From Tetrapisispora phaffii CBS 4417 (lineage: Eukaryota; Ascomycota; Saccharomycetes; Saccharomycetales; Saccharomycetaceae): a DNA stretch of 64,000 nt. The translations under genes were made by a program, and so were the position numbers. This document shows positions 16,293 through 20,755 of this stretch, piece by piece. Positions within the stretch are counted from its first letter, which is position 1. Each line of letters opens with the position of its first letter. Below the pieces are notes generated by a model. The model had not been told where the DNA came from, ran no database searches, and saw only the letters and a list, made by a program, of their open reading frames with translations. The stretch covers positions 496,001-560,000 of the forward strand of contig NC_016523.1 of assembly GCF_000236905.1 (NCBI RefSeq). The letters run 5' to 3'.

Positions 16293-18038
16293 TTATTCAG
16301 CTACATTGGTGTGTGATTCAGTAGATTCTGAATTTTCGTTTCCTTCGTGGTTACGACCTGTATCATGAAATCTACCACGATGAGGGCCGTTACCACCACG
16401 ACAGGAACCACTTCCGCCTCTGTGTCCGTTACCACGAGAAGAGCCTCTTTGATTAGTAAATCTCCTATTGTTTGTATAGTTACCTCTACCTCTGCTTGTA
16501 TTTGAGTAGCCATAGGAGCCATTCCTATTGGAACTATTGGAACTAGTGGAATTAGTATTATTGTTGTTGTATTTTGAAGTACGATTGAATGACTCTTCAT
16601 CATTACCAGAATTGCTCGAATGCAGAAAACCTGCAGCTGGCCTGAATAAAGAATAGCGTTCTTCTGGTTGTGAATTATTTGGTTTCCCAGTATAATTACC
16701 ATTGCTGTTATTTGATCTGTTTCCATAGTTATTATTACCTCTGCCTCTAGATCCGCCTCTAATATTGCCTCTATTGCCTCCTCTACCAGTGTAGTTTCCT
16801 CTATTACTCTTGTAATTACCTTCTCTCTTATAGTTGTAATTTTCTGATTGATCTTTCACGTCACTTTTATGTTCTTCGACATCATTTTCTTCCTTTGATA
16901 AATCCTTCAATTCTTCAACATTTTCAGTAACCAATCTGTCCTTATTTTTATTGGTGTTCTTGTTATCACGGTCATTAGCCTTGACTTCATCAGATCCATG
17001 CATACCTTCTCCATTATCTTCCTCATCTTCCAGAGCACTTTCAGATTCGTTAAATTTAGTGTTATCGTTAGCATTTACTTTAGCCTTTTCTGCTTGTTGA
17101 GTTTCTTTTTTAACAATGTGCGAATAATTTAAAGTTTTTGTAACTGGAATAGTGGTATTTACGTGTGTATTTGTTGGTAATAAGGATTCCTTTGTAGTTA
17201 TCGTAGCAGTCGCCAAAGAACGAATATTGTCTGAAGTAGTAATATCGTTATTTTCATTCTTCAAAATTTTTACTTTAGTTGCATGTTTTGAGTTTAAATT
17301 GTTCATGGTATTAGAGAATCTTCTTAAAGTAGTTGTGTCTTCTACGTGCAACGTTGCGATTTGTTCTTCTAATTTCAAAATTTTTGATTGTGTATCTACT
17401 GGTTTTGCAGCTCCAAATGGGTTGCTTTTTCTCCTCTCTTTTGGTTGATTATCGTGAGAATTCTGAATCATATTTTTAGGCAATGGTGCTTCAGGGGAGG
17501 GTATTTTGAAGGATTTGACAGATTCAGTTCGGTCCATATAGTTCTTGAAATCAACGAAATCGGCTGGAGACACGATGATGTTATAAATTTCTTTCAAAGG
17601 ATCATACCAACCTTTCAATATTTTATCCATATCTCTAACGGAATATAACTCTACGAAGCATACCTTAGAAGATAATTTGAAGTATTCATAGAATTTGTTT
17701 GGATTTTGAATATCTGCCATTGTTGGGTTTGGATTTAAAACCCAAAACATTTTAAATTTAATAAAATTTGTGAATTTAGAATTGAACAAATCTTTCATTT
17801 CAAAATCAGAGAAATCTGAAGATAAGTTCGAGAATTTGACAATATAGGGAGGCCCTGAAGCACTCTTGTTCACATGGTGGCTATTGCCGCTTGATTTTTT
17901 CAATAGATCGATGTTGGTTGTGCTACTAATGGCATCCAGGTTGATGTCGTCTTCGTCCCATAGAGTGTCGCTAAGGGTATCGTTACCCAGGAATTCCTCG
18001 AGAGACATTTTCTTCATGGTAGAATTGTTAGTTGTCAT
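16293..18038 (-). CDS. PSP2: RGG-motif RNA-binding protein Psp2
   Basis: Cytoplasmic RNA-binding protein that in S. cerevisiae promotes translation of autophagy mRNAs and suppresses DNA polymerase alpha and intron-splicing mutants. The 581-aa protein (S. cerevisiae 593) begins near the family signature MSLEEFLGND...WDEDDINLDAI. Its middle is acidic and Asn/Lys-rich, and the C-terminal third is dense in RGG/RG repeats (RGGNRG, RGGSRGRG, RGRGNYT, RGSSRGNGHRGGSG). I report the first ATG (18038). The internal ATG at 18008 (residue 11) aligns with the S. cerevisiae start and is a strong alternative. S. cerevisiae PSP2 has an intron right after the start; I found no donor, branch point or acceptor here. 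The upstream region is the GC-rich island, shared with the divergent transporter gene. Confidence 0.93.
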   Translation of the reverse strand: MTTNNSTMKKMSLEEFLGNDTLSDTLWDEDDINLDAISSTTNIDLLKKSSGNSHHVNKSASGPPYIVKFSNLSSDFSDFEMKDLFNSKFTNFIKFKMFWVLNPNPTMADIQNPNKFYEYFKLSSKVCFVELYSVRDMDKILKGWYDPLKEIYNIIVSPADFVDFKNYMDRTESVKSFKIPSPEAPLPKNMIQNSHDNQPKERRKSNPFGAAKPVDTQSKILKLEEQIATLHVEDTTTLRRFSNTMNNLNSKHATKVKILKNENNDITTSDNIRSLATATITTKESLLPTNTHVNTTIPVTKTLNYSHIVKKETQQAEKAKVNANDNTKFNESESALEDEEDNGEGMHGSDEVKANDRDNKNTNKNKDRLVTENVEELKDLSKEENDVEEHKSDVKDQSENYNYKREGNYKSNRGNYTGRGGNRGNIRGGSRGRGNNNYGNRSNNSNGNYTGKPNNSQPEERYSLFRPAAGFLHSSNSGNDEESFNRTSKYNNNNTNSTSSNSSNRNGSYGYSNTSRGRGNYTNNRRFTNQRGSSRGNGHRGGSGSCRGGNGPHRGRFHDTGRNHEGNENSESTESHTNVAE

Positions 18039-18369
18039 TGTAAATGTGAACTGATATTAATACGAGGGGGTTGCAGTCGTCTGTTGCTCGCTTGTTGACA
18101 GTGCGATCTGAGGTGCTTGACGAATAGAGGCAGCAGATAGTTAACCAAGTAATGAGAGTTAGAAGTTTTATAGATGAGGATAATGGTAATGCAATGGACC
18201 ATAGCCGTACCAAACAAAAGGTGATAGTCGCTGATTGATGAAGCAGGTTAAGCTATTCGAGTTCATTGTTACTTACTGTTTACACAACTGGTAGTATCGT
18301 TCGTACTTTCTCTTCGTTGTCTCTGGATAATGGCAAATGGACGCGCATCGATCACAGCACACGAGGCCA

Positions 18370-18417
18370 CGGACGAGCGGGCAACCGGCCGCGCGCGGCC
18401 GGTTGCCCGCTAGTCCG
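18370..18417. repeat. 48-bp near-perfect palindrome
   Basis: The two halves are reverse complements with no spacer. Positions 18376-18411 (36 bp) are perfectly palindromic, centred on GCGCGC. After one mismatched pair (18375/18412), five more pairs match outward. The core is pure G+C (CCGGCCGCGCGCGGCCGG). Such a sequence could extrude a cruciform or adopt Z-DNA locally, or bind a dimeric factor; the function is unknown. Confidence 0.95.
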
Positions 18418-18446
18418 AGAGGGTAACAATGCAATCACGCAAGTAG

Positions 18447-18542
18447 CACGTGATTGATTTTACTTCACGTGATCAGAAGCTCGCACGTGACGGACAAACA
18501 CTTATCACGTGCAATTTGCCGGCATCACGTGCTTCTCACGTG
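18447..18542. promoter_or_regulatory. Cluster of six CACGTG E-boxes
   Basis: Exact CACGTG hexamers start at 18447, 18466, 18484, 18506, 18526 and 18537, so the start-to-start spacings are 19, 18, 22, 20 and 11 bp. At 18466, 18506, 18526 and 18537 the motif reads TCACGTG, which suits Cbf1; CACGTG is also the Pho4/Tye7 core. The near-20-bp spacing of most sites means neighbouring sites are about two helical turns apart. It lies about 410-500 bp upstream of PSP2 and about 860-960 bp upstream of the THI74-like gene. Confidence 0.85.
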
Positions 18543-18548
18543 GCAGTG

Positions 18549-18586
18549 GGCGCAAAGAATTTCCCGATCGGGGAATTCTTCGCGCC
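18549..18586. repeat. 38-bp imperfect palindrome
   Basis: An inverted repeat without spacer centred on CGATCG (18565-18570). Seventeen of nineteen base pairs match; the mismatches are 18562/18573 and 18554/18581. It sits 7 bp after the last E-box, so the E-box array is bracketed by palindromes. Another GC hairpin with 6-bp stems (GGGCGC/GCGCCC, loop CGC) is at 18630-18644. Confidence 0.9.
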
Positions 18587-19402
18587 ACCACAGTTTGTTT
18601 TAGTATTTTTTTTGTGCGTGGTTGCCCTCGGGCGCCGCGCGCCCACGCCGTTTTCTTAAGCACCACACAGACGCGTGCGGTGTTTGCCGCGGCGTTGCTA
18701 GCTTCCTGTGGAACGCCCGGACACACAAGGCCAAGGCAATTGCTGCACACAGGCAGTGCTGCTCTACCAGCCTGCACAAGTCCGTCTGGGCTCGCGGTTA
18801 CTGTCCAGTGCAATGCCGTGAGCATCCCACTCCTGCGGCATTCTATGACACAGCGCATTCCAGTCCACAGCGGCTGTCGCAGAAGACTGCTCTTGCCTCC
18901 TTCTCCACATGCTGCACCGCCCGAACCTCATCCTTTACGCTCCTCCGGACATTCTTTGGTAGAGTGTCCCCGGAACGACGCTGCGCGCCCTCCCTGCGCG
19001 GCCGCGATGACCATGTCTCGAAACGGTCGAACCATCTATCGTCTCAAAACATAATCGTTCCATCAAAAATATTTACAGCTTCAGTTCATAAGAGCAATGC
19101 TAGATTGATAAGACTTCTGTTTTTTGTTCCTGATCGTTTTGGTGCAATATATATTGGGGATCGAGACATTTCTATTTCATATATAAACGCATGGATCACA
19201 GACTGCCAAATAATAAATTATAAGTTACGAACCCATTCAGTAATATCCGAAGAAAATACAACCGAGTTCTCTATACATATTGCATCCCACCATTGAAAAA
19301 TTTGGTGTAACCTCTTCCTCACATTTACATACACACTCGTATTGCTCCAACCTTTGGGTCTATCACAGTTCATATCGTCGCTCAACAAAAAAATCATAAA
19401 AA

Positions 19403-20755
19403 ATGAGTACAAAGACTTTGAATAATAAGAGATGGAGTATGGGGCTGATCATGTTATCTGCAGTCGTTGTTTTATGGGTCCTGTCATCATTTTTAATTAA
19501 TATAATATTCAGAGATAATTCATATAGGAAACCTTTCCTAATCACATACATCAATACTGTGTCTTTTATCTTCTATCTGCTTCCGTTGATAAAAACAATT
19601 TTAGTCAATTTTTACTATAATGGTGTAAGAAACGAGATTCCAAATATATTAAACGAATTAATCATTGCCCAAGAGGGGCCAGATTCGACTACTGTTAATC
19701 CCTTGCATCCAGAACCATCGGGCGCATCGAATGTCTCAAGCGTTGCAAATGACATTGCAGAAGGTTCTTCACAGACACTGCCAAATGAAGCAACGAGTTT
19801 ATTGTCATCTAGCTCTAAGGATGATACGGATTCAAAACAAACCTTAACCCCAAAAAACAGAATGACATTGAAAGAGACAATACTTCTCAGTCTCGAATTC
19901 TGTTCATTATGGTTTCTAGCAAATTTAATGACTAACTCTTCCCTTGCATACACGTCAGTCGCGTCGCAGACAATTCTGTCGTCAACTTCATCTTTCTTCA
20001 CTTTGTTCATTGGTTATATATGGAACATTGAAAAGATCACAAAATCGAAGACATTGGGTTCCCTGGTGTCCTTCATTGGTATCATATTGGTGACACATTC
20101 GGATTATTACCATTATGATGACAATTACCCACCAAGAACAAATCCACACTCATCTTTAATCACATTCGCAAAGGAAATCATTAATATACTGACGACGTCA
20201 GACAATGATGAAGAGTATGGAAATAGTCCATTTAGAATGTTTATCGGTAATTTGTTGGCATTGGCTGGTGCATTATTATATAGTGTCTACTCGATTCTAT
20301 TGAAGAAAAAAGTACAAGATGAATCAAGATTGAACATGCATGTCTTTTTTGGCTTTGTTGGTTTCTTCACTTTGGTTTTATTCTGGCCAGTTATAGTGCT
20401 ACTTCAATACTACGGCTGGGAAACAATTGAATTGCCTCCAACCAACACAATTGCCATCATCGTCCTAATTAACTGTCTAATAACATTTGTAAGTGATTAC
20501 TGTTGGGCAAATGCAATGTTATTAACAACTCCATTGACCGTTACAGTGGGTCTTTCATTGACAATTCCACTAGCAATGTTTGGTGATTTGCTTTTTGTCA
20601 ATAAGAAAATGAATTGGGTTTACATATTCGGTGCCATATTAATCATGGGTTCTTTTTTCGTAATAAATAATGAGTCAGGCATTGAACAAAATGAATTATC
20701 AGAACAACAAGAACAACAGAATTCACAGTCGCAGAATGTAGAAAATCAAGTTTGA
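19403..20755 (+). CDS. THI74: DMT-superfamily transporter (THI74 / YML018C family)
   Basis: Multi-span membrane protein of the drug/metabolite transporter (SLC35F-like) superfamily. S. cerevisiae has two duplicates here: THI74 (mitochondrial, thiamine-repressible) and YML018C (vacuolar membrane). The substrate is not established. The 450-aa protein shows about ten spans, the first at residues 12-33. A long hydrophilic Ser/Thr-rich loop follows (about 78-155), then paired EamA-like halves with SLAYTSVASQTILSSTSSFFTL and the second-half NLLALAGALLYSVYSILLKKK. The tail is Glu/Gln-rich. It is longer than the S. cerevisiae proteins (about 370-393 aa). The gene is + like both relatives, so the symbol is a label. 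Upstream is the GC-rich island. Confidence 0.85.
   Translation: MSTKTLNNKRWSMGLIMLSAVVVLWVLSSFLINIIFRDNSYRKPFLITYINTVSFIFYLLPLIKTILVNFYYNGVRNEIPNILNELIIAQEGPDSTTVNPLHPEPSGASNVSSVANDIAEGSSQTLPNEATSLLSSSSKDDTDSKQTLTPKNRMTLKETILLSLEFCSLWFLANLMTNSSLAYTSVASQTILSSTSSFFTLFIGYIWNIEKITKSKTLGSLVSFIGIILVTHSDYYHYDDNYPPRTNPHSSLITFAKEIINILTTSDNDEEYGNSPFRMFIGNLLALAGALLYSVYSILLKKKVQDESRLNMHVFFGFVGFFTLVLFWPVIVLLQYYGWETIELPPTNTIAIIVLINCLITFVSDYCWANAMLLTTPLTVTVGLSLTIPLAMFGDLLFVNKKMNWVYIFGAILIMGSFFVINNESGIEQNELSEQQEQQNSQSQNVENQV

Follow-up and report, generated by a model that had tools for sequence, protein, structure and literature searches.

The divergent promoter region between two genes of the yeast Tetrapisispora phaffii CBS 4417 contains an island of GC-rich DNA, which raises the question of how such a composition could arise within AT-rich yeast DNA. 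The window, i.e. the whole stretch of 64,000 nucleotides that was analysed, has a G+C content of only 31.8%. An earlier note had counted about 59% G+C for positions 18361-19020; the measured value is 59.4%, and the interval 18341-19030 has 59.3%. A calculation of maximal-scoring GC segments across the window confirmed the island and placed it at 18339..19033, with a score of 112 versus 12.5 for the runner-up. The richest 660-bp stretch starting outside of positions 17000-20000 reached only 40.5% G+C. The following features were localized in and around the island:

16293..18038, minus strand: PSP2 homologue, flanking the island
17859..18038, minus strand: codons 1-60 of PSP2, with raised GC3 (34/60 versus 150/522 in the rest of the gene)
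18039..18338, no strand: left shoulder, about 40% G+C versus 28% in the other intergenic DNA of the window
18339..19033, no strand: GC-rich island, maximal-scoring GC segment, 695 bp, 59.4% G+C
18370..18417, no strand: 48-bp spacerless palindrome, 24-nt arms with one mismatch, 96% complementary, core of 18 G/C bases
18447..18542, no strand: six CACGTG E-boxes (bHLH-type sites) in 96 bp, starts 11-22 bp apart
18549..18586, no strand: 38-bp spacerless palindrome, 19-nt arms with two mismatches, 89% complementary
18600..19033, no strand: GC-rich stretch without a long palindrome and without a recognised protein or RNA family
19403..20755, plus strand: THI74/YML018C-like EamA-family transporter, flanking the island, GC3 of consecutive blocks 0.37, 0.37, 0.40 and 0.34

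The identities that had been proposed for the flanking genes, PSP2 and a THI74-like transporter, were both matched, and the neighbourhood of YML017W-YML018C in Saccharomyces cerevisiae is presumably the counterpart of this conserved gene order. From left to right the island is composed of the longer palindrome, the E-box array, the shorter palindrome, and a remainder of about 430 bp, which is GC-rich but devoid of E-boxes and long palindromes. It had also been claimed that the island has sharp edges. This holds true for the right edge, at which the G+C fraction drops abruptly from 0.62 inside to 0.32 outside (150 bp on each side), while the left edge is softer (0.61 inside, 0.40 outside). Sharp edges do not mean isolation, because the left shoulder and the nearby synonymous sites of PSP2 are also enriched in G+C.

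The latter enrichment was quantified using the third codon positions. G/C-ending codons make up 34 of the first 60 codons of PSP2, but only 150 of the remaining 522 (Fisher p 2.7e-5), and the GC3 per 100 codons changes from 0.47 via 0.35, 0.26 and 0.25 to 0.29 with increasing distance from the island. The first of these values is the highest among the 125 blocks of the window, the genes of which have a mean GC3 of 0.27. The six blocks less than 1.2 kb away from the island have an average GC3 of 0.37, compared with 0.264 for the 119 other blocks (p 6e-4), with one of the six showing no rise (0.26). Around the island, the G+C content is thus raised in non-coding DNA as well as at synonymous sites.

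The island is not the only one of its kind. According to a tabulation in PMC5499181, the genome of T. phaffii CBS 4417 comprises 16 large contigs with 12.1 Mb. A search of the whole genome for runs of at least 17 G/C bases yielded 24 runs at 22 places, all of which were read, in two sets of 15 and 7 with slightly different score scales. Twenty of the places are situated in GC islands with scores of at least 30, and of the other two, one is no more than a poly-G run and one a weak segment of 124 bp. The islands at the 20 places range from about 0.3 to about 5 kb in size and have G+C contents of roughly 49-65%. The largest island that was profiled, the C12 peak, has a width of about 5 kb, and its G+C fraction increases from about 0.34 to 0.76 and then decreases to about 0.42. 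It spans a full-length MDM31/MDM32 gene (G000:C12:37012-38853, minus strand; Pfam 1.5e-183) with a GC3 of 0.94, as opposed to the window mean of 0.27. The encoded protein is identical (100%) to TPHA_0L00280 of Tetrapisispora phaffii CBS 4417, and the next match, from Vanderwaltozyma polyspora, has 46% identity. Another island covers most of the PRB1-like gene TPHA_0M00230, which has a GC3 of 0.66. The location of native genes within islands indicates that the islands are native DNA, the composition of which has been pushed towards G+C. Gene calls within GC-rich loci were based on open reading frames and Pfam. The island of the window is therefore one member of a class of GC islands that occurs genome-wide.

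With the exception of the window's own island and of C17:1-3000, the islands were picked by virtue of G/C runs or CACGTG clusters, and for this reason the counts do not give a genome-wide density. The region C17:1-3000, which had been taken regardless of its composition, contains an island of 552 bp, in which there is an inverted repeat of 47 bp. CGCG triplets were found 64 times versus 98 times for the reversed control, so this pattern marks GC-rich DNA and nothing more, and a CGCG pattern with fixed spacing had no match. A common 26-base CGCG-rich string is present at C3:1094135, C4:1035700 and C7:806709, in each case about 2-6 kb away from a chromosome end, and it is probably a subtelomeric repeat. 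Near position 205150 of G000:C10 (L054) a GC-rich island is broken by a run of N, as if hairpin-rich DNA had blocked the assembly.

The earlier note had considered an ancient insertion of foreign DNA or a contamination of the assembly. The high G+C content and the abrupt right edge would be in accord with such an origin. Blastn searches revealed no match to the island in E. coli genomes, and only chance-level matches of 21-37 bases to 11 plasmid records (best E 0.05), so that the vector or bacterial matches that had been suggested as a sign of contamination did not turn up. The nucleotide searches covered plasmids and E. coli genomes, so that the case against a fungal donor is an indirect one. 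The GC excess also runs on into the codons of PSP2, which neither an insertion nor a promoter element is expected to bring about, and at least one of the sibling islands is made up of a native gene. Taken together, a foreign or contaminating origin is extremely improbable. A repeated or mobile element was likewise dropped as a candidate. Copies within the same genome had been named as the indication of an element, and the own-genome search, the sensitivity of which was limited, found the island matching only itself; accordingly, the island does not resemble a repeated element.

Another option is that the island harbours a gene for a non-coding RNA or an unannotated protein gene. The predicted RNA fold of the whole island is indeed much more stable than that of shuffled sequences (z -6.2, 20 shuffles), and a stop-free frame of 230 codons crosses the right edge. 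However, the fold of the right part is nearly ordinary (z -0.13 for the minus strand and -2.0 for the plus strand), indicating that the strong fold of the whole island stems largely from the palindromes. A comparison with Rfam did not yield a match at the gathering score; eleven sub-threshold matches, many of them on palindromes, were discarded (best E 0.01). The long stop-free frame contains no ATG, and none of the three long frames matched a Pfam family above the cut-off, in agreement with the claim that no coding family is recognised. A match to DUF5949 (E 0.0065) was sub-threshold and was dropped. An RNA or protein gene is therefore highly improbable.

The presence of E-boxes had been claimed as well, and it was verified that six of the seven CACGTG motifs of the window are clustered within the 96 bp of the array. 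Transcription factors of the bHLH family (Cbf1/Pho4-like) go together with this motif, and the array is a putative bHLH promoter element of the divergent gene pair. This leads to the possibility that the whole island is a dedicated regulatory element, i.e. a divergent promoter with a bHLH array and palindromic operators, which would have become GC-rich via selection for binding sites. In addition to the position of the array between two divergent genes, it speaks for this option that CACGTG triplets with short spacing occur at 44 positions in 30 places of the genome, compared with none for the reversed control. However, from ten triplet places that were read only seven lie in GC islands, while the remaining three (C4:590200-592200 and two others) lie in ordinary DNA, and 18 of the 20 G/C-run islands do not coincide with any triplet place. 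Arrays occur in AT-rich DNA, and there are islands that lack them; the array and the GC excess are therefore separable, and the array was ruled out as the cause of the GC excess. The spacers in the first E-box triplet of the island have a G+C content of 32%, which makes the array poorer in G+C than the DNA around it. The two palindromes did not show copies elsewhere in the genome at the limited sensitivity of that search, indicating that they are not a common operator. The 430 bp without sites or long palindromes and the extension of the GC excess to the synonymous sites of PSP2 also do not fit. The proposal of a dedicated regulatory element therefore survives in a reduced form, in that the E-box array looks promoter-like, and it is distinctly unlikely for the GC island as a whole. 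One triplet place, G000:C4:590200-592200 (L068), has five CACGTG motifs in 85 bp of ordinary DNA with 30% G+C, with neither an island nor a palindrome.

The palindromes that had been noticed in the island, at 18370-18417 and 18549-18586, proved to be real, and palindromes turned out to be a widespread characteristic of the islands. They were scored as spacerless or short-spacer inverted repeats, and local dinucleotide shuffles served for comparison (20 shuffles for the islands). In 46.9 kb of island DNA (27 island pieces) 29 palindromes with scores of at least 12 were detected, while the shuffles gave an average of 0.0. The rest of the window, 63.3 kb, contains a single one, with 0.0 expected from 5 shuffles. 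The flanks of the islands contain 4 palindromes in 53.5 kb versus 0.15 expected, and thus the flanks also exceed chance. At least one palindrome of score 12 is present in 14 of the 20 G/C-run islands (13 of 19 plus the window's own) and absent from six. A second analysis, a histogram of exact arms of at least 12 bases, yielded 27 cases with spacers of 0-14 bases in 46.2 kb of islands and none in the remainder of the window; at spacers above 14 bases the histogram has a thinner tail. Both island-wide counts include loci that had been picked by CACGTG, and a motif-free subset was used as a control. Because the picking motifs can themselves be palindromic, palindromes touching a long G/C run or a CACGTG were set aside. 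With the window's island left aside, the remaining 19 G/C-run islands contain 19 palindromes, of which 14 touch neither motif. Eleven of these 14 have G+C contents of 30-62%, and among the 14 at least two palindromes are formed where dinucleotide repeats meet. The islands are thus strongly enriched in tight, short-spacer inverted repeats. At one locus (L023:1497-1598, G000:C1:1279560) a 46-bp palindrome consists of four CACGTG motifs, and a second 43-bp inverted repeat is located 13 bp away.

The distribution along the chromosomes was also inspected. Meiotic recombination often leans towards chromosome ends, and the zone 20-110 kb away from the ends was taken as end-adjacent. Ten of 21 G/C-run places fall into this zone, while 24% would be expected (p 0.015); this test is post hoc, as it was chosen once the positions had been seen. 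The 21 places are the 22 without the poly-G run at C8:741628, the weak segment at C5:299826 being retained. A second list from C1-C11, in which neighbours had been merged and three near-end places sharing one identical string had been dropped, contained 10 end-adjacent places among 30 (p 0.06, among the matches listed). Recombination also favours small chromosomes, and the raw counts of G/C-run places lean in this direction, with 7 in 2.73 Mb for the six small chromosomes and 14 in 9.37 Mb for the ten large ones.

The island is probably the centre of a persistent hotspot of double-strand break repair, bearing the marks of GC-biased conversion and the scars of fold-back events, a status that we infer from its composition. 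Breaks would recur at this site, i.e. in the promoter region from which PSP2 and the transporter gene diverge, and they would most likely be Spo11 breaks made during meiosis in the open chromatin of the promoter. In the course of their repair, GC-biased gene conversion would lead to the fixation of G/C in place of A/T. Now and then, a resected 3′ end or a repair polymerase could fold back on a short inverted repeat and copy itself, yielding near-perfect palindromes; template switching at broken ends would be an alternative origin. The six-E-box array might be a promoter element under selection that helps to hold the site open; judging by the other loci, however, the GC excess would not require such an array, nor would an array be enough to produce it. 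The genome encodes break and mismatch machinery, with one match above the cut-off for TP6A_N (Spo11 type), one for SAE2 and six for MutS_V. One MutS-family match (G000:C9:330758-331342, minus strand) has one internal TAA, which could be an error, an intron or a sign of a broken gene.

In S. cerevisiae GC3 has been fitted to conversion tracts (PMC3020949), hairpin-mediated foldback occurs in yeast, also near induced breaks (PMC7467729), and the arms of inverted repeats are homogenised (PMC8604942), as far as the parts of these sources used here go. With distance, the G+C content decays both along PSP2 and over the C12 peak. In contrast, the intergenic edges are abrupt, and abrupt steps are found at the edges of other measured islands, too. 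This counts against a hotspot, as conversion tracts predict a smooth decay, but the abruptness results partly from the choice of segment ends for maximal contrast. The maximum of the C12 peak over a gene body also counts against a hotspot, since breaks in S. cerevisiae avoid coding sequences (PMC3020949, in part). Furthermore, work cited in the part of PMC9246145 considered here found no biased conversion in S. cerevisiae.

A local bias of mutation or replication, e.g. via nucleotide pools at the time of replication or via mutagenic repair, could also have enriched G+C without any biased conversion. Composition alone cannot discriminate between such a bias and conversion, the abrupt edges are at least as compatible with a local process as with conversion tracts, and a replication-error model has been proposed for asexual Candida (PMC3845650, in part). 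However, the tight palindromes are suggestive of template switching or of the repair of breaks. In addition, the islands of about 0.3-5 kb are finer than replication-timing domains, which are coarser than this scale. This explanation is thus rather unlikely.

A recurrent break-repair hotspot with GC-biased conversion would have relatives in other systems, as judged from the parts of the respective sources used here. The sand rat and the jird have scattered, extreme and localised GC-rich regions over native genes, which were read as extreme local biased conversion (PMC7574485); unlike these mammalian peaks, the islands of T. phaffii are small, some are intergenic, and they contain long palindromes, which that part of the source does not mention. 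A dependence of GC3 on the distance to intergenic break sites is found in S. cerevisiae and resembles the trend in PSP2, but the S. cerevisiae gradient is a genome-average effect (PMC3020949), whereas T. phaffii has single loci with 60-76% G+C, one GC3 of 0.94, and abrupt edges. In S. cerevisiae inverted repeats are generated or homogenised through hairpin foldback or through switching between their arms, and the outcomes there are gross rearrangements or scattered coding mutations (PMC7467729, PMC8604942), while in T. phaffii tight palindromes are concentrated in GC islands. The GC clusters of yeast mitochondria are also short GC-rich palindromes in AT-rich spacers; however, they are mitochondrial, of unclear origin and described as invading (PMC5499181), whereas the T. 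phaffii island is nuclear and no related copy was found. GC islands in T. phaffii were not described in the literature searched by title or abstract opening, which is not proof of their absence.

It is tempting to speculate, although this is rather doubtful, that the islands as a class are a fossil record of break-repair hotspots, at which the G+C content was driven to 60-76% and palindromes were generated by fold-back, so that both features could mark hotspots from a single genome. The GC bias of conversion in budding yeasts is disputed (PMC9246145, in part). If the peaks of T. phaffii do originate from conversion, this species would be a yeast in which the strength, the mechanism and the cost of the bias could be tested at named loci. 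In that case the excess of palindromes would be a second sequence signature of break repair, which would be useful without recombination maps.
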